This document shows, piece after piece, positions 9,752 through 29,987 of a DNA stretch of 64,000 nt. The translations under genes and the position numbers were made by a program. Under the pieces are notes generated by a model. It saw only the letters and a list, made by a program, of their open reading frames with translations. It had not been told where the DNA came from and searched no databases. The first letter of the stretch is position 1; the number at the start of each line of letters is the position of its first letter. Location of the stretch: the NCBI GenBank assembly GCA_947167135.1, contig CAMVGV010000009.1:1-64000 (forward strand), in the 5' to 3' direction. This DNA is from an uncultured Lachnospiraceae bacterium (lineage in GTDB: Bacteria > Bacillota > Clostridia > Lachnospirales > Lachnospiraceae).

Positions 9752-9768
9752 TTATATTGGAGGGAAAT

Positions 9769-10104
9769 ATGTCTTTGAACAAAAACAATACGGAAGAAAT
9801 GAACGGCTGCTGTCCGCATTGCTCCGGAAAGCATAAGGAAAGAGGAGATAAAGAGAAAAAAGACCTTATGAACAGGCTGAAAAGGATAGAGGGCCAGGTG
9901 CGGGGCGTTGAAGGAATGCTTGAAAACAATGCATACTGCACAGATATACTGATGCAGGTGTCTGCGATTACCAGCGCACTAAACAGCTTTAATAAGGTTC
10001 TTCTTTCCAATCATATGAGAACCTGTGTGGCTGATAATATCCGTGAGGGTAATGATGAGATCATCGACGAGCTTGTGGTTACGCTTAAGAAGCTTATGAA
10101 ATAA
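9769..10104 (+). CDS. csoR: CsoR-type copper-sensing repressor
   Basis: This 111-residue protein of the CsoR/FrmR family is a helical repressor that leaves DNA when it binds Cu(I). After an N-terminal extension with CCPHC (~14-18), the family signature [15 protein letters not shown] is at ~36-50. The copper ligands Cys57, His82 and Cys86 match the C-H-C set of true copper CsoR rather than the formaldehyde-sensing FrmR set. The GGAGGG just upstream favours ATG 9769; a TTG at 9757 is in frame. It lies 46 bases before copA and has two matching palindromes upstream, so it should repress itself and copA until copper rises. The extra N-terminal cysteines are unusual. Confidence 0.9.
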
Positions 10105-10150
10105 GGGCTTCGGAAGAATATTGAAAGAGAAAGGAACAGCATCGAAAAAA

Positions 10151-14148: not shown

Positions 14149-14166
14149 AGGAGCTAAATACAATCC

Positions 14167-14286
14167 ATGAAAAAAGGACTGTTTTCAGGTTCATTACTCG
14201 GGCTAAAGCGATCGGTCCTGCACAGGGCTGATACAAATTCTTTATTCATGAGGCCGGAGGAAACAGGGAATTCGGAAGCACCTTAA
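14167..14286 (+). CDS. possible 39-residue small protein
   Basis: A short reading frame starts at ATG 14167 with MKKGLFSGSLLGLKRSVL and ends 30 bases before the ABC exporter gene. AAAGGAG lies at 14147-14153, 13 bases upstream, which is far for a ribosome site. It is basic and mildly amphipathic at the N-terminus. I recognise no family; it may be a leader peptide, a small membrane-active peptide or chance. Confidence 0.25.
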   Translation: MKKGLFSGSLLGLKRSVLHRADTNSLFMRPEETGNSEAP

Positions 14287-14316
14287 AAACAGTGTTGGAG
14301 AGGAGGGGGATCGACA

Positions 14317-16044
14317 TTGCGGAATTCGATCCTGAAACAGGTAAAGCAGTATAAAAGCATATTCATACTGGCACCTGTATTTATGATAATAAGCGGCATG
14401 ATGGAAACCATGATCCCGCTTATGACTACCCGTATCGTGGACTATGGCATTGAGAAGAGTGATATGGGTGAGGTGCTTCGCTGGGGCGGTTATATGCTGA
14501 TATTTGCGCTGTCTGCCCTTATTACGGCTCTTATAGGATATGTCCTTTCGGCTAAGGCATCGAGCGGTCTTGCTGCCAATCTGCGGGAGGGCTTTTTTAA
14601 GAAGGTTCAGAGCTTTTCATTTTCAAATCTGGATAAATACGGGGTGTCGGGTCTCGTTGTCCGCCAGACCACGGATATCGGTAATATACAGACAGCGGCC
14701 CAGACTGTTCTTACCCAGTTTTTTAAGACTCCCGTGGCGGTGGTCTATTCTCTTATCCTCACGGTTCAGCTTAATAAGAGATTAAGTCTTGTTCTGGTAG
14801 CAGGCGTTTTTATCATCGGAATCTTTCTTTCCGTCATTATCATAAAAAGCATAGTAATGTACCGGGAGGTTTATGAGGACTATGACGCACTGAATGAGCA
14901 TATCCAGGAAAATGTAACCGGTATAAGGGTGGTCAAGTCCTTTGCCGGGGAAAAAGCCGGATCCGAAAGCTTTGATGAGAAGGCAGCCGTTGTAAAAAAA
15001 GGATTTATAAGGGTTGAGAGGCTTCTTGCCTTTAATAATCCCATAATGATGCTGTCCCTTGAATTCTGTTTTATCGGGATCGCCTGGATAGGGGCGAAGT
15101 ATATAAGTGTGGGAGAAATGTCCGTAGGTGACCTGACAGGCTTCATAACCTATGCCTTTCAGATAATGACCTATATGGCCATGCTTGTTCTTTCCTTTGT
15201 ACAGCTGTCTTCAAGCTTTGCTTCCGTAAAAAGAGTTAAGGAGGTCCTTTCCGAAGAACCCTCAGTCGCCTTCCCCGAGGGAAGGTCTCCTGAAATGGAG
15301 GATGGGTCGGTTATGTTTTCCAAAGTTTCCTTCCGTTACGGCGAGGGAAACGGAGAGAACGTATTGGAGGACGTAAGTATCAGTATTAAGAGCGGCGAAA
15401 TGATAGGGATAGTAGGCGCCACCGGTTCGTCAAAGACCTCGCTTGTCAGCCTTATTTCAAGGCTCTATGACGCAAAAGAGGGACAGGTCACGGTGGGTAA
15501 AAGAAATGTAAAGGAATATGACGAAGATAGCCTTACAAAGAATATTGCCGTAGTCCTTCAGAAAAACCTTCTTTTTTCCGGGACCATTATGGAAAACCTA
15601 AGGTGGGGAAAGAGCGACGCAACGATCAAGGAATGCGAGGAAGCCTGCCGCCTTGCCTGTGCGGAGGGCTTTATAAAGGAAAAGGAGGGCGGATTAAACT
15701 TTTATATCTCTCAGGGTGGATCAAATCTTTCCGGAGGACAGAGGCAGCGTCTCTGCCTTGCCCGGGCGCTTATAAAAAAGCCGAAGATATTGATACTTGA
15801 TGATGCTCTTTCTGCCCTTGATACCGCTACGGAAGCAAGGATACGTCTCTCCCTTAAGGAAGATCTGCCGGATATGACAAAGCTTATCATCACCCAGAGA
15901 GTGGGTTCTGTCAGGGAAGCAGACCGGATCCTTGTTTTAAGTAAGGGAAGAGTCTGCGGCTTTGATACCCATGAAAATCTGATAAGGAGCTGCGAGGCCT
16001 ACCGGGTGCTCTGCACAGCTGCAGAAGGAAAGGAGGCGTCATGA
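14317..16044 (+). CDS. heterodimeric ABC exporter, degenerate-site subunit
   Basis: This 575-residue ABC half-transporter has six membrane helices (1-~310) and a nucleotide-binding domain. Walker A is GATGSSKTS (~367-375), the signature is LSGGQRQR (~471) and Walker B is ILILDDALSALD (~490). The catalytic Glu after Walker B is Asp, and the switch His is Gln (IITQRVG, ~527). These two changes mark the non-hydrolytic site of heterodimeric exporters such as TM287/TM288, BmrCD and LmrCD. The start is TTG 14317, chosen because AGGAGGGGG stands 7 bases upstream. It overlaps the next gene by 4 bases. It probably exports a drug, lipid or peptide; the substrate is unknown. Confidence 0.88.
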   Translation: MRNSILKQVKQYKSIFILAPVFMIISGMMETMIPLMTTRIVDYGIEKSDMGEVLRWGGYMLIFALSALITALIGYVLSAKASSGLAANLREGFFKKVQSFSFSNLDKYGVSGLVVRQTTDIGNIQTAAQTVLTQFFKTPVAVVYSLILTVQLNKRLSLVLVAGVFIIGIFLSVIIIKSIVMYREVYEDYDALNEHIQENVTGIRVVKSFAGEKAGSESFDEKAAVVKKGFIRVERLLAFNNPIMMLSLEFCFIGIAWIGAKYISVGEMSVGDLTGFITYAFQIMTYMAMLVLSFVQLSSSFASVKRVKEVLSEEPSVAFPEGRSPEMEDGSVMFSKVSFRYGEGNGENVLEDVSISIKSGEMIGIVGATGSSKTSLVSLISRLYDAKEGQVTVGKRNVKEYDEDSLTKNIAVVLQKNLLFSGTIMENLRWGKSDATIKECEEACRLACAEGFIKEKEGGLNFYISQGGSNLSGGQRQRLCLARALIKKPKILILDDALSALDTATEARIRLSLKEDLPDMTKLIITQRVGSVREADRILVLSKGRVCGFDTHENLIRSCEAYRVLCTAAEGKEAS

Positions 16045-17789
16045 AGGACAGCTTAAAGCGTCTCCTAAAATACATCACTGAGAGATACAGTTTCTTTTTC
16101 TCTGTAACGATCATATGCGTTGTGGTATCCGCCCTTAGCTCGGTAGCAGCATACGCCTATCTTTCCCTGCTGGTGGACAGGTACATCACTCCCCTTATCG
16201 ACATGGAGGATAAGGCTTCGGGCTTTGCGGCTCTTCTTAAGGCGCTGATAGTTCTTATCTTTATATTTTTGTCCGGTGTTCTTGCGCAGTTTATCCAGGC
16301 AAGGTCAGTCGCCCGGATGACACACGGCACAATGTATGACCTTAGAAAAGATATTTTTGACAGAATGGAGCATTTCCCTGCGAAGTACTTTGATACCCAT
16401 TCAAAAGGTGAGATAATGTCCGTATATACCAATGATACGGATGCCATACGGCAGATGATAAGTCAGGGGATACCGAATATCATTTCCGCGGTCATTACGG
16501 TTGTGGCTATCCTCGCTGCGCTGCTGTACCTGAATATCCCCTTAGCACTCCTTTCAGTCCTGATGGTCGGACTGGTGATGGGGGTCAGCATGAAGATCGT
16601 AGGCTCGGCAAGGAGCTCATACTCGGAGCAGCAGGAGAATCTGGCGAGCCTTAACGGATATGTGGAAGAGATATTCAGCGGACAGAAGGTTGTAAAGGTA
16701 TTTCACCGGGAGGATAAGTGCTTAGAAGAATTCAGGGAAAAAAATGAGGCTTTAAGGAAAAGTGCATTTAAGGCTTCGAAATACACAGGTATAGTCTCCG
16801 CTGTAAATATGCAGGCCGGTAATATCGTATTTTACTTTCTGTTTGCTCTGCTCTGCAGTATCTTTGTGATAAACGGCTGGGGAAATATGACCATAGGAAA
16901 GACCATAGCCTTCCTCTCCCTTTCAAAGACCATGAATGTGCCTGTTGTCCTTGCGTCAGGGCAGATATATTCCTGTGTAACGGCTCTTGCCGGGGCAAAG
17001 CGTATCTTCGGGATGATGGATGAAGAATGTGAAGAGGACAGCGGCAAAAAGGCCATTCTTCCCGGAGACGTAAGGGGAAGGGTGGAGCTTCAGAATGTGA
17101 ACTTTTCATATGTTCCGGGGACACAGATCCTCTATGACATTAATATCACAGCGGAGAGCGGGCAGAAGATAGCCATAGTGGGTTCGACAGGCTCGGGAAA
17201 GACTACCATCACCAATCTACTGAACCGCTTTTATGACCTCGACAGCGGACGCATACTTTTGGACGGAACGGATATAAGGGAATACCGGAAGGAGGACTTA
17301 AGGCGCCTTATAGGTATCGTTTTGCAGGACACACACCTTTTTACCGGCAGTATCCTTGACAATATCCGTTACGGCAATCCGCTCCTTACGGACAGGGAAT
17401 GTATGGAGGCCGCGGAAAAAGCCAGGGCAGACGACTTTATACTCCGTCTGCCGGACGGGTATGATACGGTTTTATGCCGGGATGCGGAGAACCTGGCGGA
17501 AGGGCAGAGGCAGCTTCTTAATATAGCAAGAGCAGTTGCCGCAAACGCCCCGATACTTATCCTTGACGAAGCCACGAGCTCAGTGGATCCGGGAACGGAG
17601 AAGCTCATACAGGAGGGAATGGATAATCTCATGAAGGGCAGGACTTCCTTTGTGATAGCACACCGCCTTTCCACCATTAAGAACAGCAACCTTATCATTG
17701 TACTTGACCACGGAAGGATACTGGAAAGCGGAAGCCATGAAGAGCTGATGTCAAAGAAGGGCGCATATTACAGCCTATACAGTATTTAA
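16041..17789 (+). CDS. heterodimeric ABC exporter, catalytic subunit
   Basis: This 582-residue partner of the preceding half-transporter has an N-terminal six-helix membrane domain and a nucleotide-binding domain with Walker A GSTGSGKTT (~380), Walker B ILILDEATSSVD with catalytic Glu (~505-516) and switch His in IAHRLS (~540). Its signature is LAEGQRQL (~485) instead of LSGGQ. In the dimer this altered signature faces the altered Walker B and Gln of the partner, so one ATP site is fully canonical and the other fully degenerate. The pattern is complementary and therefore selected, not decay. ATG 16041 lies in an ATGA overlap, so the two are translationally coupled. Confidence 0.9.
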   Translation: MKDSLKRLLKYITERYSFFFSVTIICVVVSALSSVAAYAYLSLLVDRYITPLIDMEDKASGFAALLKALIVLIFIFLSGVLAQFIQARSVARMTHGTMYDLRKDIFDRMEHFPAKYFDTHSKGEIMSVYTNDTDAIRQMISQGIPNIISAVITVVAILAALLYLNIPLALLSVLMVGLVMGVSMKIVGSARSSYSEQQENLASLNGYVEEIFSGQKVVKVFHREDKCLEEFREKNEALRKSAFKASKYTGIVSAVNMQAGNIVFYFLFALLCSIFVINGWGNMTIGKTIAFLSLSKTMNVPVVLASGQIYSCVTALAGAKRIFGMMDEECEEDSGKKAILPGDVRGRVELQNVNFSYVPGTQILYDINITAESGQKIAIVGSTGSGKTTITNLLNRFYDLDSGRILLDGTDIREYRKEDLRRLIGIVLQDTHLFTGSILDNIRYGNPLLTDRECMEAAEKARADDFILRLPDGYDTVLCRDAENLAEGQRQLLNIARAVAANAPILILDEATSSVDPGTEKLIQEGMDNLMKGRTSFVIAHRLSTIKNSNLIIVLDHGRILESGSHEELMSKKGAYYSLYSI

Positions 17790-17810: not shown

Positions 17811-17880
17811 GTCATCCTGAGCGCAAAGCTAAGGATCTTTCCAAGCGTTTTAAAAGATTCTTCGCTTCGCTCAGAATGAC
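17811..17880. repeat. REP-like dispersed repeat, copy 1
   Basis: GTCATCCTGAGCG at 17811-17823 followed by AAGGATCTTTCC at 17831-17842 belongs to a repeat family also seen at 40282 and 60094. The right side at 17863-17880 (CGCTTCGCTCAGAATGAC) is a loose inverted match to the left side, so the whole forms a hairpin after the ABC exporter genes. Confidence 0.65.
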
Positions 17881-18030
17881 ATTACGTACAATCGCTTCGC
17901 TCAGAATGACATACAATCGCTTCGCTCAGAATGACATTACGTACAATCGCTTCGCTCAGAATGACATTACGTACAATCGCTTCGCTCAGAATGACATTGA
18001 ATAAACAGCATCCGCTTCGATCAGAATGAC
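17863..18030. repeat. tandem array of 30-bp units
   Basis: The 18-base core CGCTTCGCTCAGAATGAC occurs exactly at 17863, 17893, 17918, 17948 and 17978, with one decayed copy near 18013. The period is 30 bases except for one step of 25. The linker is ATTACGTACAAT or a shortened form. The array lies in the 17790-18134 gap, which has no gene, and looks like expansion of the right arm of the REP-like element. Confidence 0.85.
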
Positions 18031-18134
18031 ACTAAATAAACTACATTCGTTTCGCTAAACTTAGCGGCATCGGCACCATCTGAATGATATTTTTTGAACA
18101 GATCCTTAGACTCTCAGAAAAAGGAGGATATGTA

Positions 18135-19325
18135 ATGGACGGAGTAAGATTAAAGGAAGCAGGGGAAAAGGAGCTTATTATAAGCTTTGAAGGCAGGATA
18201 ACGAGGGAAAATTCAAAGGAAACGGAGGAAGCGCTTACAAAGCTCCGGCAGGAGAACAGGCAGGAGCAGCTTATTTTTGATTTTAATGAGCTTTTATATA
18301 TTTCCAGTGCCGGTCTACGCGTTCTCTTAAATATGGCAAAGGGTGAGAAGAATAAGGTGCGGATAGAAAATGTATCCGTTGAGATCTACGATATCCTGGG
18401 AGATGTTGGGTTCCTCCGGCTTTTTGATGTTCATAAGGCATTAAAGCAGTTTACGATGGAGGGCTTTGAACTTATCGGCCAGGGTGCCAACGGTGCGGTT
18501 TACAGGGTTGACCGGGAAAATGTGATAAAGGTATTTTCTGCATCCACACCCTTAAGCGATATCGAAAGGGAAAGGGATCTTGCACAGCAGGCGCTTCTTT
18601 CCGGTATCCAGACTGCCATTTCGTATACGGTCGTGAAGGTCGATGACTGCTACGGGATCCTCTTCGAGCTTATTGATGCGGTGCCGCTTTCCATAACCCT
18701 TAAACAGAAGCCGGACGAATATGATCATTATACGGAGCTCTATATAGAGCTTTATAAGAAGATCCACACTACTAAAGGAGACTCGGAGTATTTCCCGTAT
18801 ATAAAGGACTTGTACCACAGCTCGATAGACAGCTGCAGTGAGTACTATACAGAAGATGAGATAAAAAAGCTCCACGGCCTTGTGGCCTCTGTTCCGGACA
18901 GGGATACCCTGATACACGGGGATTATCATCCGAATAACGTCATGGTAAAAGACGGGGAACTGATGCTTATTGATATGGGAGACTTAAGCATCGGGCATCC
19001 GGTCTTTGATTTCCTTGCCACGGCAGCCACGCAGGTGAATCTTTTGAAGCTTAGCCCGGAGTTTGCGGAGGGACATACAAAGATGCCGGCGGAGCTAATT
19101 AAGAAAACCTGGCGGAGACTTATCGACAGCTATTTTGCGGACTTTTCAAAGGAAGAGAGGGACAGGATAGAGGAGCAGATATGCATCTTTTCAAAGCTTA
19201 AGGTGGCACTTGCCCCGGTATTCGGGAGGGGCGCGGATCCGGCCATCATAAAGGCCAGCATTGATGACGCGAAGGTTAATTTCCTGCCTCTTATTGATTC
19301 GCTTATAGGATCCGTAAACTGGTAA
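18135..19325 (+). CDS. STAS domain fused to APH-like kinase
   Basis: This 396-residue protein joins two modules. Residues 1-~110 form a STAS domain as in anti-sigma-factor antagonists (RsbV/SpoIIAA), with the switch serine in ISSAGLR (Ser57 or Ser58). Residues ~115-390 form an aminoglycoside-phosphotransferase / choline-kinase-like kinase with a Gly-rich loop (IGQGANGAVYRV), the catalytic loop HGDYHPNN (~261-268) and the metal-binding Asp in LIDMGD (~278-283). AAGGAGG at 18121-18127 sets ATG 18135; an upstream in-frame ATG at 18084 has no support. A STAS switch carried on a kinase is unusual. Two RsbU/SpoIIE-type phosphatases nearby (24731, 27806) could act on the serine. The kinase target is unknown and may be a small molecule. 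Confidence 0.85.
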   Translation: MDGVRLKEAGEKELIISFEGRITRENSKETEEALTKLRQENRQEQLIFDFNELLYISSAGLRVLLNMAKGEKNKVRIENVSVEIYDILGDVGFLRLFDVHKALKQFTMEGFELIGQGANGAVYRVDRENVIKVFSASTPLSDIERERDLAQQALLSGIQTAISYTVVKVDDCYGILFELIDAVPLSITLKQKPDEYDHYTELYIELYKKIHTTKGDSEYFPYIKDLYHSSIDSCSEYYTEDEIKKLHGLVASVPDRDTLIHGDYHPNNVMVKDGELMLIDMGDLSIGHPVFDFLATAATQVNLLKLSPEFAEGHTKMPAELIKKTWRRLIDSYFADFSKEERDRIEEQICIFSKLKVALAPVFGRGADPAIIKASIDDAKVNFLPLIDSLIGSVNW

Positions 19326-19334
19326 CTAAAGCTT

Positions 19335-19397
19335 CCCTTAGCAGTAAGGGCTCTGAAAAGATACGGTCCGGAGCAGTAAGGACTCTGAAAAGATACG
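19335..19397 (+). promoter_or_regulatory. paired 26-bp direct repeats before the ATP-grasp operon
   Basis: Two 26-base copies starting AGCAGTAAGG and ending AAAAGATACG lie at 19340-19365 and 19372-19397 and differ at one base (period 32). A 6-bp hairpin (CCCTTA / TAAGGG, 19335-19350) overlaps the first copy. They sit directly before the first ATP-grasp gene and may bind a regulator. No clear -35/-10 pair was found. Confidence 0.55.
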
Positions 19398-19426
19398 TAA
19401 AAAGAAAGGAACGAAAGTTTAGTAGA

Positions 19427-20800
19427 ATGAAGCGCGTGGTTTTTTATTCAAGTAACAGTAAGCACCGGGATAAGAGCAGTAACTGCACGGTTTTCCCAAA
19501 GTGGTCAAGGCAATGGGACGAGATGGCAAAGCGCCATCCGGACTATGATATCACATTGGTGCTGCAGCTTAACGGAAGGTACTTTCTGGATATCACCGAC
19601 GGTGAGCTTTCGGATAAGCCGGAAAACATCACCTTGAAGATACTTCCGATGGAGGCAAAGCTCCCGGAATTTCTGCAGGCAGTGGAGGAGCTAAAGCCTG
19701 ACATCGCGGTAGCCATGCCGGGACCGGTCAGCGGATATGACTGGAACGGACTCCGGGATGCAGCTATCGCGGAGGGTTTAAGGAAAAAGGGTATAGATAC
19801 CTACTGCTATTCAACAGATACGGCAATGAACTGCTTTGATAAATGGAGGACCCATCAGATCCTTAAAAACGGGGGATTTCGCATACCGGATGCCCTGTAT
19901 CTCCACTATGAACTGTTTAAGACGGATAAGCTCGGGGAAGCCTGCACAGGAAACGTCTATCAGGAATATATCCTCTGGGAGACAGAGAATATGAAGATGC
20001 CTGTCGTTATAAAGAGCACCACGGGATCTTCTTCGATGGGTATCTATATTGCAAAGGACTATGAGGATGCAAAAGCTTATCTTTTATCTGACCGCCTTAC
20101 GGAGGATGTGATACTGGAAGAGTTTCTGGAGGGGGAGGAGTACGGCGCCGAGGTGCACGGAGACAGGGGAAATTATTATGTTTCGCCGCCCTTCAGGATA
20201 TTCAATACGGTGCCGGGTCAGCTGAATGACCCTCTGGGGCAGACCACCATTAAGTACGGTCCCATCCTTGATCCAAAGCTTCATATCGAGGAGGTGCGTT
20301 CGGAGCTTAAGCGTCTCGCGGAGCTTATGGGGTTTTCCGGCATAATGGAAGTGGATCTCGTCCTTGTTCAGGATAAGTGGTATATCCTTGAGATAAATAA
20401 CCGCTGGTCAGGTCTCACCACCCTTATAACCGCTTCCCAGGGGAGGCTGCCCTATGATGTCTATATGGATGAAGCTGTGGGGGCGGCCGTTGACTATAAT
20501 GATACGAAGAACTTAAGCTTTTCCTGCCAGTTCAAGATGCCGGACGTAAAAGAGGATACTCTTTCAAAGATCGCTTCAGAGCCTTCAATGAAGAGTATCA
20601 TTAAGTACGATGTCCGTCTGCCCGGAAGGGAGCCCTTTACATTTAATGATGCGGTCACAGGGGGATATGCTTCCATGGAGGAGCTTTTAGCGGGCTTCTC
20701 ATCATTGCAGAAAAAGTACCCGGATGAGATCCCGGAAGCGCTGATCAAAGCACTTAAGGAAAAGGAGCGTTTAACTTATGGAAAATATCATTATCGTTGA
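19427..20800 (+). CDS. ATP-grasp ligase, first of a pair
   Basis: This 457-residue protein has the ATP-grasp fold used by enzymes that join a carboxylate to an amine or thiol through an acyl phosphate. Visible features are an N-terminal Rossmann-like preATP domain, the nucleotide-binding strand MPVVIKSTTGSSSMGI (~185-200), and the metal-binding end GFSGIMEVDLV ... ILEINNRWSG (~305-335), where the Glu and Asn are the usual Mg ligands. It is longer than D-Ala-D-Ala ligase and has ~100 extra C-terminal residues. AAAGGAAC stands ~15 bases before ATG 19427, so the ribosome site is weak. It overlaps the second ATP-grasp gene by 23 bases, so the two are probably co-translated and work on one product. 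The substrate is unknown. Confidence 0.8.
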   Translation: MKRVVFYSSNSKHRDKSSNCTVFPKWSRQWDEMAKRHPDYDITLVLQLNGRYFLDITDGELSDKPENITLKILPMEAKLPEFLQAVEELKPDIAVAMPGPVSGYDWNGLRDAAIAEGLRKKGIDTYCYSTDTAMNCFDKWRTHQILKNGGFRIPDALYLHYELFKTDKLGEACTGNVYQEYILWETENMKMPVVIKSTTGSSSMGIYIAKDYEDAKAYLLSDRLTEDVILEEFLEGEEYGAEVHGDRGNYYVSPPFRIFNTVPGQLNDPLGQTTIKYGPILDPKLHIEEVRSELKRLAELMGFSGIMEVDLVLVQDKWYILEINNRWSGLTTLITASQGRLPYDVYMDEAVGAAVDYNDTKNLSFSCQFKMPDVKEDTLSKIASEPSMKSIIKYDVRLPGREPFTFNDAVTGGYASMEELLAGFSSLQKKYPDEIPEALIKALKEKERLTYGKYHYR

Positions 20801-22454
20801 TCCCTTTTCAACAGGGGTCAATTTCCTCGAAGATATAGAAAAAAGAGGATTTCACCCCATAGGCCTATGGTCCAGACGGAGTAAAGAGATATTTGATCTG
20901 ATGGAAGAGGTAAGAAGGCCGATAGAACACGAATATAACGGAAGAGCAGACTTTTTTCCGGAGGAAAAGGAGTATAAGGATACCCTGAAAAAAGTAAGGG
21001 AGCTTAAGCCCGGGTTCGTTATTCCCGGAGCGGATCTCGGAATCGAGCTTGCGGCAAGGCTTTCAGAGGATCTCGCTCTTCCGGGGAATCCAATGGAAAG
21101 GATCCCGGTACTTACAAATAAATTTCTGATGCACCGGGCTTTAACAGAGCGGGGTATCAGGGGAATACGCGGAAAGATAGTCCATAACCTTGATGAGGCC
21201 ATAGGCTTTTACCGGGAGCAGGGATTTAAGGGCTGTGTACTGAAGCCCTACCGGGGAGCAAGCTCGGTGGACGTAAGGATCTGTGACAGCGAGGAGGAGC
21301 TTAAAGCCGCATATGACGAGGTCTTTGCAGTAGGGAACTATATGGGCGGTGAAGAAGAGGGCATGCTCCTTCAGGAGAGGATAAGCGGTACGGAGTATAT
21401 TGTGAATTCTGTTTCCCTTAGGGGAAGGCACAAGCTCTCCGCTATCTGGAAGCATTCCAAGAAAAAGGTCGAGGGAGGCGGCATGGTCTATAACTACACG
21501 GAGAGCTTAAGCCGCCCGGAGGCAGGCTGTACCGCCCTTGTAAAATATGCTTATGACGTACTGAACGCTCTCGGCGTGGAGAACGGAAACGTCCACAGTG
21601 AGTTTATGATAGATAAGGACGGTCCGGTCTTAATCGAGATAAACTGCCGTCCTATGGGAAGCGATATGTCGGCAGAATTTCTCGACAGGATATGGGGGCA
21701 TCATGAGACGGACCTTTGCCTTGACGCGTATCTTAACCCCGATGCCTTTTTTGCCCACATTAACGATCCCTTCAGACCACTTGCAAAGGGATTAAAAAAG
21801 CATATCATCACGGATAAGGAAATGGATGTGATCCAGGCTCCGGTCCTTTCCATGATCACACGTCAGAAGAGCTACTGTAACGCGAGGCTCGGAAAGGCCG
21901 TGGCTGACCACCTTGCCCGAACGGTTGACCTGGATACGAGCGCCGGGGTTATCTACCTTGCAAATGAGGATGAGGGGCAGCTCTACCGTGACCGTGATTT
22001 TCTGGAGAGAACGGAGAGCAAGTATTTTGACATGCTGTTTACAGGGAGGATCACGAACCCTGAAGACAGGCCGAAGGATCTGAAGAGTGTGAAAGAGGTG
22101 CTTGAAGATATTAAGCCCGTGGGATCAGTACTTGTTCTGTCCAATGACATTACTTTCCTGCCCGGTGTAACGGTCTCATCCCCTGACAATTTAAGTAAGG
22201 CTTCGGGTGGCTTCCGCTACGCTGTTCTGGATCTTTCTTACCGTGAGAATGAGGACTATGAGGGCATTTCGGAGATGTTCTTTACTCTGTGCGAAAAGGT
22301 GAGAAAGGGAGGATATGTGATTGTGCCCGAGAGCACATACTGGCACTTGTCCTGCGGTATGGAATCCATAGAGATACTATGCGAAGCGGCAGGACTATTT
22401 ATAGAGGTGCCGAAGGCTGATACCGGCAATGTCGTGATTGCCTGTAAGGACTGA
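20778..22454 (+). CDS. ATP-grasp ligase with extra C-terminal domain
   Basis: This 558-residue second ATP-grasp enzyme resembles the amino-acid ligase / carbamoyl-phosphate-synthase-like group. Residues 1-~110 form the preATP domain, ~110-310 the ATP-grasp core with GCVLKPYRGASSVDV (~155) and the metal ligands in VLIEINCRPMGS (~288). Residues ~430-558 form a separate alpha/beta domain (SVLVLSNDITFL ... YAVLDLSY ... EKVRKGGYVIVPE) that looks like the second half of a class I methyltransferase without its glycine motif. AAGGAG stands 10 bases before ATG 20778, inside the previous gene. Paired ATP-grasp enzymes often make dipeptides or peptide-like metabolites; that role here is inferred. Confidence 0.8.
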   Translation: MENIIIVDPFSTGVNFLEDIEKRGFHPIGLWSRRSKEIFDLMEEVRRPIEHEYNGRADFFPEEKEYKDTLKKVRELKPGFVIPGADLGIELAARLSEDLALPGNPMERIPVLTNKFLMHRALTERGIRGIRGKIVHNLDEAIGFYREQGFKGCVLKPYRGASSVDVRICDSEEELKAAYDEVFAVGNYMGGEEEGMLLQERISGTEYIVNSVSLRGRHKLSAIWKHSKKKVEGGGMVYNYTESLSRPEAGCTALVKYAYDVLNALGVENGNVHSEFMIDKDGPVLIEINCRPMGSDMSAEFLDRIWGHHETDLCLDAYLNPDAFFAHINDPFRPLAKGLKKHIITDKEMDVIQAPVLSMITRQKSYCNARLGKAVADHLARTVDLDTSAGVIYLANEDEGQLYRDRDFLERTESKYFDMLFTGRITNPEDRPKDLKSVKEVLEDIKPVGSVLVLSNDITFLPGVTVSSPDNLSKASGGFRYAVLDLSYRENEDYEGISEMFFTLCEKVRKGGYVIVPESTYWHLSCGMESIEILCEAAGLFIEVPKADTGNVVIACKD

Positions 22455-22526
22455 TCTTTAAGCTGTTCAGAACAGGCACCTGACAGGCACTTAAAGGAAC
22501 CGGGGCTCCGGTATATGGAGGTTAAT

Positions 22527-23936
22527 ATGCTGCTTATAAGAGAATATGACCGGGAGATGAACCATAGGACCTTTGATCTTTGTCCGGAGCTTTTTCATAA
22601 GGCACTGGATGCCGTGCTCCTTGGGGAAAAGCGCTTTCACGTAAAAAACCCTTACGGTGAGGATTTTGATCTTCTGTATCAGGAAAACCAGCTCTTTGCA
22701 GAGAGTTCGGATAAGTATCCGGATTCGCCCCTCTTTCACCAGGATCCCCTGTATCCACCCTATCTTTTTTATGACGAGTCTGACAGGGACAGGCTCTGCT
22801 TTGATATATTTGAGGGCTTTGACGGGGTCTGGTTTCAGGAGATCAGCGAATATACGGTGGTCCTTACCGGAGTGCTGCTTAAGTTTACAGATCTAAAGCT
22901 TATCTGGCAGGATGAAAGGATACACTGGTTTTATCCCGGGGAAGAGAGGATAATAATAGATCATAGGGAGCCTGATAAGGATGATAAAAAGACTCTTAAG
23001 CTTATCAATACTTTTTATCCCTCTGCCTTTATCTGTGACTTTTTCACCATGGATCCGGTGGTGCTCTTTCACCATGTGTTCGTATACCAGTGGCTTACAA
23101 AGCTCAGTATGGATAAGGTGAAATATGCAGAGATCCTGGTGGCAAGAAGTGAGGGAATAGGAAGCATACTTACGGTTTACGCAAGAACCCGGAACTTCCT
23201 TAAGCGCTTCGGTATAGAGGTGACCCTGCAGCCGGGAAGCTCAAGGTATGCGGATCACATTATAGAGAAATACTTTTGTGTACGGATGACGCCTTATGAT
23301 TCCAATGAAAATAATACGGTCTATATTACAAATTATTACGGGCTGCTATTCACAAAAATGCTCCGCTACAGTACCGGGGATGATTTTAATTCATCCTCAC
23401 TGGATCCGGGCTTTTTAAGTGAGATGAAGGAGTACGGTGACAGTGTATTTGAAGGAAAGAGAATGCTCGGGATACTTTTAAGGGGATCCGATTATATAGC
23501 ATCCGGAATGAGCGGCGCCTCGGCACCGGTCACGGTGGAAGCTGCCCTGCCGAAGATAAGGGAGTGGATCGAGGAGGATAAGTATGACGGCATCTTCCTT
23601 GCCACAGAGGACAGGGATATCCTCAAAAAAATGGTGAATGCATTTCCGGGAAGGATAAGGATAATCCCGCAGGAACGATACAGCGTCACGGATTTCATCA
23701 AAGAGGGCGTGAATACGATAAGCGAGCTTGACAGGAAGCGCCATCCGACAGGAAAGGAATATGATGACTTTCTGGAGGATTCAACGGTTAATTACTTCTA
23801 TGCCCTGTATCTTCTGTCAAGGTGTGAGTCATTTATGTATTCCGGACAGTGCGGAGGCATCGTTATGACAAAGTCACTGTCCGAAAAGGGATTTAAGAGG
23901 ATGTGGTGTTTTGCGGAGAATAAGGAGATAAAATGA
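22527..23936 (+). CDS. fucosyltransferase-like glycosyltransferase
   Basis: This 469-residue protein has C-terminal features of the GT-B fucosyltransferase group (GT23 / O-FucT-like): GILLRGSDY (~312-320) as the sugar-nucleotide Arg motif, GIFLATEDRDIL (~352-363) and a late SRCESFMYSGQCGG (~435-448). The N-terminal half is unlike known families and rich in aromatic residues. Two ATGs 12 bases apart enclose GGAGG, so ATG 22527 is the start and the upstream ATG is part of the ribosome site. It ends in an ATGA overlap with the next gene. It probably glycosylates a product or a surface component; donor and acceptor are not visible. Confidence 0.6.
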   Translation: MLLIREYDREMNHRTFDLCPELFHKALDAVLLGEKRFHVKNPYGEDFDLLYQENQLFAESSDKYPDSPLFHQDPLYPPYLFYDESDRDRLCFDIFEGFDGVWFQEISEYTVVLTGVLLKFTDLKLIWQDERIHWFYPGEERIIIDHREPDKDDKKTLKLINTFYPSAFICDFFTMDPVVLFHHVFVYQWLTKLSMDKVKYAEILVARSEGIGSILTVYARTRNFLKRFGIEVTLQPGSSRYADHIIEKYFCVRMTPYDSNENNTVYITNYYGLLFTKMLRYSTGDDFNSSSLDPGFLSEMKEYGDSVFEGKRMLGILLRGSDYIASGMSGASAPVTVEAALPKIREWIEEDKYDGIFLATEDRDILKKMVNAFPGRIRIIPQERYSVTDFIKEGVNTISELDRKRHPTGKEYDDFLEDSTVNYFYALYLLSRCESFMYSGQCGGIVMTKSLSEKGFKRMWCFAENKEIK

Positions 23937-24697
23937 ATCCGACGAGAAGGATAAAGCTTCCGAACCTTTATAATTTCAGGGATCTTGGAGGGTATGAGAC
24001 CGGGGACGGAAGGGTAACTGCATGGAACCGCCTGTACAGGTGTGACTGTCCCTCAAGGCTTACTGAAAACGAATGGCAGGCTTTCAGGGACAGAGATATT
24101 AAGACACTTATAGATTTAAGGAGCAGCTATGAAGCCTGGGAGGAGCCGGTCAGTCCTCCGGATGATATGAGGCTTATTTCCTGTCATTTTTTCCGGGAGG
24201 AGGAAGGAGCGGACTTAAAGGGTGAAGCGGGAAAGAGTTTTTTGGCGAGCCTTAGTATCGACTACTGCATAATGGCAGAGGCTTCCATAGACCGTATCGC
24301 ACTCATACTAAAGACCATAGCGGGAAGCATGAGCGACGGAAACAGCGCATTTTTCTGCTCGGCGGGAAAGGACCGTACAGGGATCATAGCGGCTGAAATT
24401 CTTAAGCTATGCGGTGTTTCAGACCGGGACATCATTTCTGACTATGCCGTTACGGAAATCTATATTGCGGAAGTCATAAAAAAGAAGCTTGATTCACTCC
24501 CGAAAGAGATACTTGCGGAGATTTCACCGGAAACCATGGAGGCCGCTGCTTTTTCCAAACCGGAAAATATGGAGCGTTACCTTAAATGGTCTGCAGACTT
24601 TGGTTTTCTTTCTCAAATGGAGAAGAACGGGTTTTCAAAAGAACTGCAGGGTAAACTTATAGAGGCTTTATCTGTTCGGAAACCGGGAGTATTCTGA
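23933..24697 (+). CDS. tyrosine/serine phosphatase-like protein
   Basis: This 254-residue protein belongs to the DSP-PTPase group related to Y_phosphatase3 (PF13350). It starts with the family pattern NFRDLGGY (~14-21) and has the P-loop CSAGKDRTG with nucleophile Cys142 and Arg148. The His that usually precedes the Cys is Phe, which may raise the cysteine pKa and slow catalysis. The general-acid region is not obvious. It overlaps the glycosyltransferase gene by 4 bases and lies 33 bases before the SpoIIE phosphatase gene, so it belongs to the same operon. It may act on a phosphoprotein, phospholipid or phosphorylated intermediate. Confidence 0.8.
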   Translation: MNPTRRIKLPNLYNFRDLGGYETGDGRVTAWNRLYRCDCPSRLTENEWQAFRDRDIKTLIDLRSSYEAWEEPVSPPDDMRLISCHFFREEEGADLKGEAGKSFLASLSIDYCIMAEASIDRIALILKTIAGSMSDGNSAFFCSAGKDRTGIIAAEILKLCGVSDRDIISDYAVTEIYIAEVIKKKLDSLPKEILAEISPETMEAAAFSKPENMERYLKWSADFGFLSQMEKNGFSKELQGKLIEALSVRKPGVF

Positions 24698-24730
24698 ACA
24701 GAGAAGCGTTAATTACCGGAGACTGATCAG

Positions 24731-26509
24731 ATGAAGTCTGCACTTTCCTACATTAAGAATAAAAATCTGATATTCGTTGTGGTGACCGCTGTTACCCTTA
24801 TGTTTACTGCAGCTGTTTTTTCCTGTAGTCTGGTCATGATAAGGACGATATCAAAAATGGCTGAAAATCTGGTGGGGGATATGCTGCAGATGGAGGCGGA
24901 GCGTTGTGTATCCTGTATCGATGACTACGAATGTCTTCCCTGGCTTCTTGACTTCTGGAGTTCCAATGCCGGTGATATGACCACGGATTATGATGAGCTT
25001 TATAAGCTTGAAAGCCGTCTTGCGGATTTTGGGGACACGGATCTTCTGATTGACCGGACAAACGTTTCGGAAGAGAGGCTTAAAAAGCTCGAGGTTGAAG
25101 AGCAGAAGGTTTTTGCCGATTATTGCTTCCTTGCCAGCCGTCTGGAGATCGATACCGACAAAAATGCCCGTGTACCGATAACCACAAAGTGTATTAGGAT
25201 CACAGATGACAGTGAATTCCTTTTCTTTTCTGATATAAACAGTGAATATGAGGACGATGCCGGAGCCGGGAATATCCTGATAAGCTGTCCGCTTGATAAG
25301 GATCTCAGTGAATACTATAAGACTGCGGAACAAAATGCTGTTTCCGGAGAGAAAACAGCCGTATTCAGGACAAAGGGAGCGGAGGATAAGCTGGTTTACT
25401 GCATACCGGTCATAATGGACGGGAATACCGTATGCCTTTTCACGTCATCCGCTGACAGTACCCTTGTCCGTACTACAGTCCTGAATATCGTAAAGAGGAT
25501 ACTGCCGGGCTGTATTTTTATGATAATCCTTGTGGCCGTGATACTGGTGCTGATCCTCCGTAAATCGGTTGTACGGCCCGCAGTGCTTTTGAAGAATGCG
25601 CTGCAGGAATATTCGGAAACAAAGAGGAGTGAGGATATCCCGAAGAATCTCGGCGGTCTTACGGAGGAGAGAAATGAGATAGGCCTTCTGGCAGCAGGCT
25701 TTAATGATCTGGCGATAAGCATAGACAGTTATGTTGAGGAGATAAGGACCAATGCAGCCGAAAAGGAGAGGATGCTGTCCGAACTCAATACCGCGAGGGA
25801 GATACAGATGAGCCAGCTGCCATCGGACTTCCCGGCGTTCCCTGAGAGAAGTGACTTTGACCTCTATGCCATAATGGATCCGGCTCTGGAGGTTGGAGGG
25901 GATTTTTATGATTTCTTCTTTCTTAACGATGATCATCTGGTACTGGTAATTGGAGATGTTTCAGACAAAGGTATCCCTGCTGCTCTTATGATGATGGTCT
26001 GCAAAGCCTATATCAGGGGTGCCGTGGGACGGGAGGAGTCACTTGCCGCTGCCATGGAATACGTAAATAAGCTTATTTGTGAGAAAAATTCCCTGGGGAT
26101 GTTTGTCACTGTATGGATCGCAGTGCTGGAGCTTTCAACCGGGAGGGGAACCGCTGTAAACGCAGGTCATGAAAAGCCGGTAATCCGCCGTAGCGGAGGC
26201 AGCTTTGAATTTGTGGTAAATGAGCATAATTTAGCTCTCGGAGCCTGGGAAAATGAGGAATACGAGGAGCGCTCCTTTACCCTTGGGAAGGGCGATTCCG
26301 TTTTTGTGTATTCGGACGGGGTGCCGGAAGCAAATAATATTTCGGGCGAGCTCTTCGGAGCCAAAAGAATGCTTGATGCCCTGAATAAAGTGCCGGATCT
26401 CACACCGGAGGAGAAGATAAAGGATATGCAGAATACGATAGAGGAATATGTCGGTGAAGCAAAACAGTTTGACGATATTACCATGCTTATGTTTACAAAG
26501 AAGGCGTAA
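24731..26509 (+). CDS. membrane sensor SpoIIE/RsbU-type PP2C phosphatase, first copy
   Basis: This 592-residue protein has a membrane helix at ~12-36, an extracellular region of ~215 residues, a second helix at ~258-280, a HAMP linker (~282-335), a short coiled coil and a PP2C domain of the SpoIIE/RsbU type (~365-590). Metal-binding motifs are visible: EVGGDFYDFFF (~388-398), IGDVSDKGIPAA (~410-421) and the late FDDITMLMF. RsbU-type phosphatases dephosphorylate STAS proteins and so switch sigma-factor or enzyme control. The STAS-kinase at 18135 is the only STAS protein in the window and is therefore the best candidate target. No RsbW-type kinase was found nearby. Confidence 0.88.
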   Translation: MKSALSYIKNKNLIFVVVTAVTLMFTAAVFSCSLVMIRTISKMAENLVGDMLQMEAERCVSCIDDYECLPWLLDFWSSNAGDMTTDYDELYKLESRLADFGDTDLLIDRTNVSEERLKKLEVEEQKVFADYCFLASRLEIDTDKNARVPITTKCIRITDDSEFLFFSDINSEYEDDAGAGNILISCPLDKDLSEYYKTAEQNAVSGEKTAVFRTKGAEDKLVYCIPVIMDGNTVCLFTSSADSTLVRTTVLNIVKRILPGCIFMIILVAVILVLILRKSVVRPAVLLKNALQEYSETKRSEDIPKNLGGLTEERNEIGLLAAGFNDLAISIDSYVEEIRTNAAEKERMLSELNTAREIQMSQLPSDFPAFPERSDFDLYAIMDPALEVGGDFYDFFFLNDDHLVLVIGDVSDKGIPAALMMMVCKAYIRGAVGREESLAAAMEYVNKLICEKNSLGMFVTVWIAVLELSTGRGTAVNAGHEKPVIRRSGGSFEFVVNEHNLALGAWENEEYEERSFTLGKGDSVFVYSDGVPEANNISGELFGAKRMLDALNKVPDLTPEEKIKDMQNTIEEYVGEAKQFDDITMLMFTKKA

Positions 26510-26600
26510 TGGAATATCATAATTTGGATTTTCAGCTTTTCCATAAGCTGACTTCAGATACAGAATTAATGAAAGAAAACGAAAGGATCCGGTCTTACCA

Positions 26601-27785
26601 ATGAAAAAATTCTGGGATGACAAATATACAAAAATTGCCATATTGACGGTGATCACCGTGGCGGCATCATATCTTGCGATATTACTGCTTGGTCAGGGCG
26701 GTGGTTTTTTAAGGGGAGTATTTTTACTGCTTTCCTGGATACTGGATGTGGTGTCTCCGCTGATACTTGGCCTCATATTCGCCTATATACTGCTGCCGGT
26801 TGTGAATTTCTTCAACGCTCTTCTTCTCAGAGTACCTTTGATGAAGAAAAAACCCGGGATATGCAGGGGGATTTCGGTCTTTACCACCTTTTTCTCCCTG
26901 TTCCTCGTTATTTTCATTCTTCTGTCGCTGATCTTTTCCACCATTACTTCAAATATCCACTTTATCAGCTTCGATGACCTGAAGCTGATGGCAGAGTATA
27001 TCGGTGTCCAGACTGTCAACTTTTATAATGAGATCAGGAACAGCCTTATGAACTATGATATCGTTCTTCCCGATATGGACAGCATAATAAGCAGTGCCAG
27101 GCACCAGATCACCTCGATAGACGGGAAACGGGGCACGGATCTTGCGGCCGTATTCGGAAACGGGCTTCTCGGAGCCTTTAATTTTGTGAAAAATACTGTG
27201 GGACAGTTCTTCTTTGCCATCATCTTCAGTATTTATTTCCTGTATGACAACAAGGGAATGGGCGCATACTGGAGCAGGGTATTTAATGCGCTCCTCGGTG
27301 AAAAGTTCTACGGTTACTTCCGGATATGCATGTCAGACCTTGATACCTGCTTTGCGGGATATATCCGGGGACAGCTGGCGGATGCCATGTTTATGGCCAT
27401 AGTTGTGACGATTTCCCTGTCTGTGGCGGGCATACCCTATGCAGCCCTCATCGGTATTGCTACAGGGATAGGAAATCTTATCCCATATGTGGGACCCTTT
27501 GTGGCATACTTTATGACCATTATATGCTGTCTCCTGAAGGGAGAGCTGAAGCTTATTATAATAGGAGTCATCATTGTTTTCGTTATCCAGACAATAGACG
27601 GGAACATTATAAATCCCAAGCTGCTGAGCAACAGTATAGACGTGCATCCGGTACTCGTGATAGTGGCTCTCCTTTTCGGCGGTGCCGTCGGAGGGCTTTT
27701 AGGAATGCTTCTGGCTGTTCCGGTAGCGGCCTTTATCCGTATCCAGTTTGAACGCCTCGTCAAATTCAGGGAATCCGGTGATTGA
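26601..27785 (+). CDS. AI-2E family transporter
   Basis: This 394-residue membrane protein has about eight hydrophobic segments arranged as in the AI-2E family (PF01594): a first cluster at ~8-75, a long soluble region at ~105-185, and a C-terminal cluster with the family-typical GNLIPYVGPFVA (~290) and GGAVGGLLGMLLAVPVAA (~360). Members export autoinducer-like molecules or ions; the substrate here is unknown. It stands between the two SpoIIE phosphatase genes. Its stop codon lies 20 bases before the next start. This suggests that the phosphatases and the permease share a signal or a regulatory output. Confidence 0.88.
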   Translation: MKKFWDDKYTKIAILTVITVAASYLAILLLGQGGGFLRGVFLLLSWILDVVSPLILGLIFAYILLPVVNFFNALLLRVPLMKKKPGICRGISVFTTFFSLFLVIFILLSLIFSTITSNIHFISFDDLKLMAEYIGVQTVNFYNEIRNSLMNYDIVLPDMDSIISSARHQITSIDGKRGTDLAAVFGNGLLGAFNFVKNTVGQFFFAIIFSIYFLYDNKGMGAYWSRVFNALLGEKFYGYFRICMSDLDTCFAGYIRGQLADAMFMAIVVTISLSVAGIPYAALIGIATGIGNLIPYVGPFVAYFMTIICCLLKGELKLIIIGVIIVFVIQTIDGNIINPKLLSNSIDVHPVLVIVALLFGGAVGGLLGMLLAVPVAAFIRIQFERLVKFRESGD

Positions 27786-27805
27786 AGGAGAGAAGAAGTA
27801 AATAT

Positions 27806-29566
27806 ATGGGCACAGAAGCGAAAAAAGGAAACGGGAAAAAAAGAAGGAAGATAGTGGTACAGATCGGAGCTGTTATTATCATCCTGTTCACCTTGATAAC
27901 TCTGGCAGTTGGAAATATGGTGACTATGGCTTCTTTTTCGACTGCTCTTTCCGGAAATATAAGCATGTTCGGGGATTACCTCAATGCACTTTCCGACGAA
28001 CTGGATGACTATAAAGCCACTACCTGGTTTATAGATTATTGGAGGGATAATACTGAAGAGCTTGTAAAGGATAAGGCTGCTTTACAAAAAAGGGAGAGAA
28101 TAGGGGATATACTGAAGAAGCTTTCCAGGGAATCGGTCAGGGATGTTACCGCAGAGGATGCCGAATCCTTATCTGAGGAGGAACAGAAAAGATTTGCATG
28201 CAGGTGTTATTACGATTACATGCAGATCCTCGAAAGATATACGGATGAAGATCAGAACTATCTCATTATCATCGCAATGACAAAACACGAGGGGGAGGAT
28301 CCCGTTGTTCTATTAACAAACATAACCTACGACGGAGATATTCTTTTCGGAGAAGAAGGGGATATCAAGGAGTTCCAGCAGGTAGCAGCGAATACGGATG
28401 AAGCAACAAAGGCCGAGGTATGGAAGTGGGCCTTTTCCACTCCCGAGAAATTGATGGTTTTCGGTACCAGCATTCCCTTTTACGCATATAAAGGAACCTC
28501 AGACATTCAAATATTCGGGGTTCTTCCCGCAGAGAAGGTTTACGATGATATGCTATTCACGGATTATATTCGGAATGAAGTTATCGTAATGATGCTTGTG
28601 GTACTTATCCTGATCCTTATTTGTCTTTATTTTATCGTGCCAAGACCCCTTGCCAAGGTAAAGAGATGCGTTTCCGAATACTCGGATACAAAGGATACAA
28701 ACGAGCTTGTAAGTAAGCTGGCCGCCATCCGTTCAAAAAATGAGATCGGTGCTTTTGCGGATGAGTTTTCTTCTCTGGCTCTCGAAATGGATAGGTATAC
28801 AAAAGAGATAGAGAAGCTGGCGGGGGAAAGAGAAAGGGTTGAAACAGAGCTGAATGTGGCCACAAGCATACAGATGCAGATGCTGCCGCAGGTTTTTCCG
28901 GAAAGTGAAAGATTTGAGGTTTATGCCTCCTCTGAAGCCGCTAAAGAGGTGGGAGGAGACTTTTATGACTGCTATATGCCGGATGACGATCACCTTGCTC
29001 TGACAATTGCCGATGTTTCAGGAAAGGGAGTTCCTGCCGCATTATTTATGGCGGTTTCAAAAACCATGCTGAAAAACAGGACTATGGTGGGCGGTACGCC
29101 GGCGGCCATTTTCCGGGATGTAAATAACTGGTTATGTGAGGGAAATGACAGCTGTATGTTTGTAACGGTGTGGCTGGGGATACTTACCGTGTCCACGGGA
29201 GAGCTTATCTGTGCGAACGCGGGACACGAAAAACCGGCGATCCGCTCGGGAGATGAACCATTCAGGCTTATAGACCGGGAACATGGATTATCTCTCGGGG
29301 TGATCAAAGATACCGGATATGAAGATGAGCATTATAAGCTTTCTTCAGGAGATGCGTTGTTTGTATATACAGACGGTGTGCCCGAGGCTCACTCGGGGGA
29401 TGACAGCATGTTCGGAGAAGACAGACTGGAGGCTGTCTTAAGTCAGGTATCGAAGGACGAAACTCCTGAGGAAATACTGCAGAGGGTGAGCCGGGAGGTA
29501 AGTGGGTTTTCCACCGGCACAGCACAGTATGATGATCTTACCATGCTGTGCCTTGTCATGAATTGA
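27806..29566 (+). CDS. membrane sensor SpoIIE/RsbU-type PP2C phosphatase, second copy
   Basis: This 586-residue protein has the same layout as the protein encoded at 24731: basic N-terminus, membrane helix (~17-40), extracellular sensor (~40-255), second helix (~258-280), HAMP, coiled coil and PP2C domain with EVGGDFYDCYM, IADVSGKGVPAA and YDDLTMLCL. The two share motif order throughout but the sensor parts look different, so they are diverged paralogues that may read different signals. ATG 27806 is preferred; TTG 27782 overlaps the upstream stop. AAGGAG lies 15 bases upstream, which is rather far. The 3' end overlaps a small gene on the other strand. Confidence 0.87.
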   Translation: MGTEAKKGNGKKRRKIVVQIGAVIIILFTLITLAVGNMVTMASFSTALSGNISMFGDYLNALSDELDDYKATTWFIDYWRDNTEELVKDKAALQKRERIGDILKKLSRESVRDVTAEDAESLSEEEQKRFACRCYYDYMQILERYTDEDQNYLIIIAMTKHEGEDPVVLLTNITYDGDILFGEEGDIKEFQQVAANTDEATKAEVWKWAFSTPEKLMVFGTSIPFYAYKGTSDIQIFGVLPAEKVYDDMLFTDYIRNEVIVMMLVVLILILICLYFIVPRPLAKVKRCVSEYSDTKDTNELVSKLAAIRSKNEIGAFADEFSSLALEMDRYTKEIEKLAGERERVETELNVATSIQMQMLPQVFPESERFEVYASSEAAKEVGGDFYDCYMPDDDHLALTIADVSGKGVPAALFMAVSKTMLKNRTMVGGTPAAIFRDVNNWLCEGNDSCMFVTVWLGILTVSTGELICANAGHEKPAIRSGDEPFRLIDREHGLSLGVIKDTGYEDEHYKLSSGDALFVYTDGVPEAHSGDDSMFGEDRLEAVLSQVSKDETPEEILQRVSREVSGFSTGTAQYDDLTMLCLVMN

Positions 29567-29675: not shown

Positions 29676-29902
29676 ATCAGACCGTGTATATCAGCGGCAC
29701 TCTCCGGATAGTTTACGTGAAGAGCCACAAGACCTGACCCGTCAAGCGCTTCAATGGTTTTTCCAATAAGAGCGCTTCCGATGCCTCTTCTCCTGAATTT
29801 CTCCGATACATAGATATAGTCAAGGAAGAGGGAGTCGGCAAGCTCACTGAAAAAAGCCACACCGGCCGCTTCGTTTTCAATGCCCATTCCGGTAAGTTCC
29901 AT
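29672..29902 (-). CDS. short GNAT acetyltransferase, probably truncated
   Basis: This 76-residue protein contains the core of a GNAT N-acetyltransferase: a strand FLDYIYVSEKF, then the acetyl-CoA-binding RRRGIGSALI (~37-46) and ALHVNYPESAADIHG. Normal GNAT domains are ~140 residues; both the first strands and the last strand are missing. The start is well supported by GAGGAGG on the minus strand a few bases before ATG 29902. The stop overlaps the next small reading frame. It is either a minimal family member acting as a dimer or a decaying gene. Confidence 0.55.
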   Translation of the reverse strand: MELTGMGIENEAAGVAFFSELADSLFLDYIYVSEKFRRRGIGSALIGKTIEALDGSGLVALHVNYPESAADIHGLI

Positions 29903-29987
29903 AGGGGCCTCCTCTTTTTTGCTGTAATTATATTATCGTAAGCATAAAAAAATACAAGATTTTTACTAAAGATAATACACCCGATAT

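Follow-up and report, generated by a model that had tools for sequence, protein, structure and literature searches.

Partner switching has mostly been studied as a route to sigma factors. Other outputs are on record: according to the available passages of PMC9239204, SiaABCD of Pseudomonas is a partner switch with a non-sigma output, and STAS-kinase/phosphatase control of cyclic di-GMP (c-di-GMP) enzymes and chemoreceptors has been proposed in Campylobacterota. A STAS-glycosyltransferase fusion from Anabaena is mentioned in an excerpt of PMC8256260, and APH domains tethered to Ser/Thr kinases are mentioned in an excerpt of PMC2877116. Here we describe a gene cluster in a 64,000-nucleotide stretch of DNA from an uncultured Lachnospiraceae bacterium (contig CAMVGV010000009.1; the whole stretch is referred to as the window) that encodes a STAS domain fused to an APH-type kinase, termed STAS-APH. 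Our preferred reading, to which we assign a probability of about one half, is that the genes form a cluster for the biosynthesis and export of a small molecule, overlaid by partner-switch control.

All cluster genes lie on the forward (+) strand. Eight of them had been listed in a first-pass annotation and were confirmed: the STAS-APH kinase (18135-19325), two ATP-grasp ligases (ATP-grasp 1, 19427-20800; ATP-grasp 2, 20778-22454), the fucosyltransferase-fold protein P5 (22515-23936, conserved start probably at 22527), Y_phosphatase3 (23933-24697), the SpoIIE-type phosphatases SpoIIE_a (24731-26509) and SpoIIE_b (27806-29566, alternative TTG start at 27782), and an AI-2E/YtvI-family permease (26601-27785). 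Scripted gene calls were made with a home-made open reading frame (ORF) picker. With ATP-grasp 2 as the query, named genomes yielded 11 loci, all titled Lachnospiraceae and including AD3010 and AC3007, and at nine of these the ligase is surrounded by cluster genes. In 7/7 cluster loci with a long enough contig (those of L039 and L046 are cut and not countable), STAS-APH is the gene immediately 5' of ATP-grasp 1; SpoIIE is present at the position of SpoIIE_a in 9/9, and Y_phosphatase3 is also present in 9/9, counting a diverged copy 3' of SpoIIE in L047 and L048. The co-occurrence within Lachnospiraceae that had been proposed as a check was therefore found for these genes but not for SpoIIE_b, which occurs at only two of the nine loci. 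The permease, earlier taken as part of the system, occurs at three. Both were rejected as core parts and are local extras of the nearest relatives.

In relatives the 5' part of the cluster holds two ATP-binding cassette (ABC) halves, together with either a single condensation-like acyltransferase or a pair of them. In the window these are AT1 (12871-14148), ABC exporter half 1 with membrane and ATPase parts (14317-16044; Pfam ABC_membrane 6e-41, ABC_tran 4e-28) and ABC exporter half 2 (16041-17789), an ORF present in 7/7 cluster loci whose contig reaches it, two being cut. The second acyltransferase, AT2, is absent from the window, where 14148-14317 separates AT1 from the ABC gene, and is present in L040, L105, L047 and L048. 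The conserved unit is thus shifted 5' relative to the stretch first annotated, starting at 12871 and ending at SpoIIE_a.

ATP-grasp 1 was found in 12/48 genomes of the genus and in 2/150 of the family, both of the latter being from that genus; three of the 12 carry distant homologues (G164, about 46-47%; G170, 34%; G176, 29%). The conserved neighbourhood in relatives supports the earlier proposal that a biosynthetic operon is overlaid with phosphatase/STAS control. The nine SpoIIE matches in the window's own genome make proximity less remarkable, and the permease and SpoIIE_b are local additions, both of which fit a scheme of ordinary operon neighbours, with SpoIIE_a and the genomic RsbW/STAS pairs controlling a distant sigma factor and the biosynthetic genes merely co-located. 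Nevertheless, SpoIIE follows in every cluster locus despite an identity to SpoIIE_a that falls to 27-31% in L041, L047 and L048, and we consider this scheme very unlikely. A Pfam scan, which covered 21 proteins of the window and neither other parts of the genome nor the relatives, recognized no sigma factor.

Condensation-like enzymes, ligases and an exporter are united in this one conserved unit. AT1 is condensation/HxxxD-acyltransferase-like, although its motif, HNLGGG, is without the Asp. It has no Pfam match, weakly matches AT2 and was found in all cluster relatives with a contig long enough to include it. AT2 matches the N-terminal part of a nonribosomal peptide synthetase (NRPS) in L041, a 957-residue protein inside the cluster with AMP-binding and PP-binding domains (N-terminal match to the AT2 homologue, 2e-35). 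A row of genes in L101 (G164) encodes a 2415-residue NRPS, a 448-residue protein, ATP-grasp 1, STAS-APH (42%), Y_phosphatase3 and a MATE exporter. An adenylation-peptidyl carrier protein (A-PCP) module is present in L041 and L101, and none was found among the window cluster proteins scanned, which did not include the second ABC half. Of the ligases, ATP-grasp 1 is Ddl/PylC/PRK12767-like, all matches being under the NCBIfam cut-offs. ATP-grasp 2 is L-amino-acid-ligase-like with a C-terminal extension; it matches PRK07206 (3e-74) and DdaF (6e-34) in NCBIfam, both under cut-off, and the L-amino acid ligase 30vh (E 2e-35) and 3vot (6e-13) in the PDB.

P5 gave no Pfam or NCBIfam match, and a PDB profile search returned a single chance-level hit. 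Structural comparison, which for both P5 and the APH domain was limited to the 1000 top-ranked Foldseek chains, revealed a GT-B fucosyltransferase fold at residues 196-473, the N-terminal ~195 residues being without assignment. Two tandem ~900-residue proteins encoded elsewhere in the same genome (contig C34; L050, 6332-9037 and 9069-11729) fuse a P5 domain to an AT2-like, condensation-like domain, which ties the P5 and AT2 activities together. ORFs near these fusions look by eye like leucine-biosynthesis genes.

Because relatives carry NRPS modules within or beside the unit, it looks like a biosynthesis-and-export cluster, and what the conserved gene set produces and exports is probably a small peptide-like compound. 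The first-pass suggestion of a product that is made, glycosylated and exported gains from the exporter, the condensation-like enzymes and the NRPS genes of relatives; its glycosylation stays conjectural. L154, with two AT-like ORFs near STAS-APH, was considered as a second biosynthetic context and dropped, as the intervening gene is isoamylase-like.

STAS-APH comprises a STAS domain (residues 14-103) and an APH domain (residues 112-297). The predicted phospho-acceptor Ser58, encoded at 18306-18308, occupies the RsbV/SpoIIAA phospho-acceptor position and is invariant in 47/47 STAS-APH sequences, a count that leaves out the HD-fused proteins of L162 and L163, which are without a STAS domain. The APH domain scores 56.6 bits against Pfam APH (threshold 23.2), its kinase motifs are intact (HGDYHPNN...IDMGD, plus the N-lobe Lys), and its top structural matches in Foldseek are small-molecule kinases. 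The window SpoIIE proteins are PPM phosphatases that retain the conserved Asp residues of the family, and SpoIIE_a has a sensor-like N-terminal region. Y_phosphatase3 matches its Pfam family at 9e-42 and has a CSAGKDR loop. The window indeed lacks the RsbW-type kinase that the first-pass annotation had reported missing, but such kinases are encoded elsewhere in the genome, including two free genes, on contigs C46 and C34, that each lie beside a free STAS gene. On C46 (L018, 8169-9641), directly beside free STAS and RsbW genes, a single ORF joins a MATE protein to a C-terminal SpoIIE part; this may be a deletion fusion, an assembly chimera or a real architecture.

The association of STAS-APH with partner-switch genes was examined in a class sample, in which a STAS-APH search (E <= 1e-60) matched 24/391 genomes. 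The class set comprises 27 regions from 23 other genomes, with neighbours taken within four ORFs; among these, L161 encodes APH alone, L162 and L163 encode HD-APH fusions, the L159 region is cut, and no STAS-APH was called by the ORF picker in L160. STAS-APH-RsbW triple fusions occur in 6/27 regions (L141, L142, L144, L146, L150, L151). A SpoIIE-RsbW fusion lies near STAS-APH in seven (L137, L138, L139, L143, L149, L158 and, ~2.9 kb off, L148), SpoIIE without an RsbW domain is found in five (L144, L146, L150, L151, L161), and a MATE protein with a C-terminal RsbW-like domain is likewise found in five (L141, L144, L150, L155, L161). The RsbW, MATE, HD, YP3, STAS and PP2C labels were assigned with small profiles made for this analysis; Pfam was run on ten of the proteins so labelled, plus others, and confirmed three triple fusions, three SpoIIE-HATPase_c_2 proteins, and MatE-HATPase_c_2 in L144, L150, L155 and L101. 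Across 12 regions from the family, SpoIIE is beside STAS-APH in three (L089, L094 and L097, the STAS-APH of L097 having been missed by the ORF picker and its position taken from a separate result), and MATE-GHKL (L090), Y_phosphatase3 (L096) and a free STAS gene (L091) occur once each. Y_phosphatase3 genes also adjoin STAS-APH in L096, L101, L140, L145 and L147. An HD-type (RelA/SpoT-like) hydrolase gene adjoins STAS-APH or APH in L137, L142, L144, L148, L149, L091 and L094, and is fused to one or the other in L100, L162 and L163, which raises a possible link to nucleotide signalling; Pfam HD_4 was verified for the L137 hydrolase only.

Chance proximity was rejected. Of 38 STAS-APH loci in 29 Clostridia genomes, 14 have a SpoIIE no more than 5 kb away, as placed by Pfam matches, against 0.6 expected, and none of a million simulations exceeded seven loci. 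The estimate assumes uniform placement and independence of the loci, though several genera are related; it also uses genome sizes that were rounded and includes SpoIIE hits that are weak. The 38 loci exclude the window's own genome, G409, G308, G332 and the APH-only and HD-fused loci.

In the mechanism that we propose, the condensation-like acyltransferase(s) and the two ATP-grasp ligases would build a short peptide-like or acylated amino-acid product, fucosyltransferase-fold P5 would decorate it and the two ABC halves would export it. SpoIIE_a, as a sensor phosphatase, would take phosphate off Ser58 of STAS-APH, and an RsbW-type GHKL kinase acting in trans from C46 or C34 would rephosphorylate it; in relatives this kinase is often fused to SpoIIE or to STAS-APH itself. 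The phosphorylation state of Ser58 would then set the activity or the partner of the APH domain, predicted to be an intact small-molecule-type kinase. Y_phosphatase3 may reverse the APH product, the substrate of APH and this reversal being guesses from gene neighbourhood.

A kinase and its STAS domain in a single chain with motifs intact, in a cluster without RsbW, could also be a self-contained switch, with APH phosphorylating the STAS serine in cis or trans in place of RsbW and SpoIIE reversing the reaction. Consistent with such a switch, L103 has free STAS and RsbW genes beside ATP-grasp 1 in place of STAS-APH, and the fold can act on proteins: an excerpt of PMC2877116 notes a resemblance to choline kinase in YihE, a protein kinase of E. 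coli. However, intact RsbW is fused to STAS-APH in six of the 27 class regions and SpoIIE-RsbW is nearby in seven (three of each Pfam-checked), and a distinct kinase for STAS is thus often retained in this family. Furthermore, the top structural matches of APH are to small-molecule kinases, and the STAS-APH paralogues of the same genome (L015, L016) keep Ser58 despite Asn in place of the catalytic Asp. We judge the self-contained switch unlikely; as the main reading, a simple replacement of RsbW by APH was rejected on the six fused loci. Because many relatives keep RsbW beside or fused to STAS-APH, APH is likelier to be an output than a substitute kinase, and the earlier idea that the usual partner-switch wiring seems replaced is, on the same observation, not supported in that simple form. 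The best reading is that STAS-APH is a putative partner-switch effector serving small-molecule phosphorylation and export.

Alternatively, APH could be a biosynthetic or self-protection kinase for the product, with STAS as only a docking or folding module and SpoIIE_a directed at other STAS proteins of the cell. Yet STAS-APH is also found away from biosynthetic genes, adjoining partner-switch genes, and invariance of Ser58 would be needless in a mere docking module; we give this explanation a low probability, similar to that of the self-contained switch.

Several observations weigh against a partner-switch effector in a biosynthetic cluster. The paralogues L015 and L016 carry the Asn substitution noted above, and no SpoIIE, RsbW or MATE gene was recognized in the 14-20 kb around both. 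No SpoIIE, RsbW domain, MATE-GHKL or free single-domain STAS was found in 12/27 class regions, although these twelve include a further STAS-bearing protein in L159, a MATE-GHKL gene at a distance of ~5 kb in L152 and a plain MATE gene in L157; 6/12 family regions show none of the associated genes, or 7/12 if Y_phosphatase3 is not counted, and 24/38 loci have no SpoIIE within 5 kb. L101 has STAS-APH and no SpoIIE in its 19 kb, whereas L102 and L103 have ATP-grasp 1 and SpoIIE without STAS-APH. At two of the 11 ATP-grasp 2 loci (L042, L043) the search with the remaining query genes found nothing near the ligase. Finally, the ABC exporter half that was scanned has no GHKL domain and the cluster no RsbW, so the exporter-docking idea developed below is not directly transferable to the window. 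At L042 and L043 (~10001-11671) the ATP-grasp 2 homologues (69%) adjoin glycosyltransferase and acyltransferase-3 genes, identified by Pfam in L042 and by ORFs matching these in L043, which suggests that the same ligase serves a surface glycan there.

The GHKL domains of the relatives fall into two kinds. The N-box Asn, the G1 Asp and GG(L/V)G are intact in 6/6 distinct RsbW domains fused to STAS-APH and in 12/12 fused to SpoIIE. The G2 GG pair is lost in 20/25 distinct MATE GHKL sequences and kept in five, the pattern expected if the domain serves for docking and not as a kinase. A second sample of the class was searched with a MATE C-terminal profile, which also catches RsbW and SpoIIE-RsbW proteins; 28/291 genomes matched, and 19 of the 30 loci fetched (L167-L183, L195, L196) were MATE-GHKL fusions. 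The window's own genome has a MATE-GHKL protein on C16 and a partly covered one, beside a STAS gene, on C111. We tentatively suggest, as a reading less probable than not, that partner switching in Clostridia has a branch that is independent of sigma factors. Here STAS domains, charged by GHKL kinases and discharged by SpoIIE, would directly gate STAS-APH kinases and also MATE exporters, whose mostly degenerate GHKL domain would dock unphosphorylated STAS; in the window this branch would control the production and export of a peptide-like product.

Further features of the window are as follows. A 30-bp tandem repeat array (17862-18031, no strand assigned) lies between the exporter and STAS-APH, just 5' of the latter, and by eye resembles ORF-like stretches in L015, L020 and L040, from the same and related genomes. 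Terminator-like hairpins 3' of SpoIIE_b (29896-29925, + strand) are a consensus match only; the region has 23 such hairpins against 15.7 +/- 3.6 in shuffles. The promoter scan was uninformative (33 matches against 25.7 +/- 4.8). A ZorA/ZorB-like MotA-OmpA pair lies at 33470-35667 (PADLOC ZorB E 4e-72, ZorA 3e-22). After it come genes for a histidine kinase (35654), a protein that matched nothing in Pfam or PADLOC (37191) and a CheW-receiver protein (38104), with no recognizable ZorC/ZorD. MotA homologues also lie 3' of the cluster in L039 and L047. At 8001-10000, around a RES-domain gene (8010-9104), G+C is 0.354, against 0.45-0.50 from 10 kb on, and this stretch is possibly acquired DNA.

STAS-APH-RsbW fusions and RsbW-tailed exporters suggest that enzymes and transporters are controlled directly, and offer a testable handle on families without a role, namely TIGR02172-like kinases and MATE proteins of about 580-600 residues. 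The cluster itself is a biosynthetic locus of rumen Lachnospiraceae without assignment. It occurs in AC3007 and AD3010 and, as neither record bears a metagenome-assembled label, the cluster product can probably be sought in culture.

STAS-APH is not described in the passages available of PMC8256260, PMC11418112, PMC2877116, PMC1262709 and PMC9239204. More broadly, no description of STAS-APH, RsbW-bearing MATE proteins or the cluster was found in an open-access library, which is limited evidence of absence. Among known biosynthetic enzymes, the L-amino acid ligases, dapdiamide synthase DdaF and BacD are matched by ATP-grasp 2, which differs in carrying an extra ~140 C-terminal residues; a further difference is that the cluster sets a pair of dissimilar ATP-grasps alongside condensation-like enzymes and the two ABC halves. 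P5 shares its fold with the FUT8, NodZ and POFUT fucosyltransferases at ~14% identity, but has the additional N-terminal part and paralogues fused to a condensation-like domain. The aminoglycoside and choline kinases (APH, LicA) have the same fold and catalytic motifs as STAS-APH but not its N-terminal STAS domain, nor the signalling genes linked to it in 15/27 class regions. In the paralogue family NCBIfam TIGR02172, whose model name gives no function, the APH part covers nearly the whole model at 97.5 bits, under the 228-bit cut-off.

The B. subtilis SpoIIE/SpoIIAA/SpoIIAB and RsbU/RsbV/RsbW switches share with the locus the STAS serine in the same loop and a PPM phosphatase; the GHKL kinase is also shared, but is encoded elsewhere in this genome and beside or fused to the other components in relatives. 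The locus differs from them in that its STAS domain shares a chain with a kinase of the small-molecule type and that the neighbours scanned included no recognized sigma factor; GHKL domains, moreover, are fused to SpoIIE, STAS-APH or MATE exporters. SiaA is the best NCBIfam match of both window SpoIIE proteins, far under cut-off, and in Vibrio fischeri SypA/SypE, as presented in the available part of PMC10120452, STAS phosphorylation controls a non-sigma output. Compared with SiaABCD and SypA/SypE, as far as those sources extend, the output here would be the kinase domain joined to STAS, with exporters as a possible further output in relatives. The parts, and partner switches with non-sigma outputs, are known; what appears new, on limited evidence, is the STAS-APH effector, the RsbW-bearing exporters and the link to a biosynthetic cluster.

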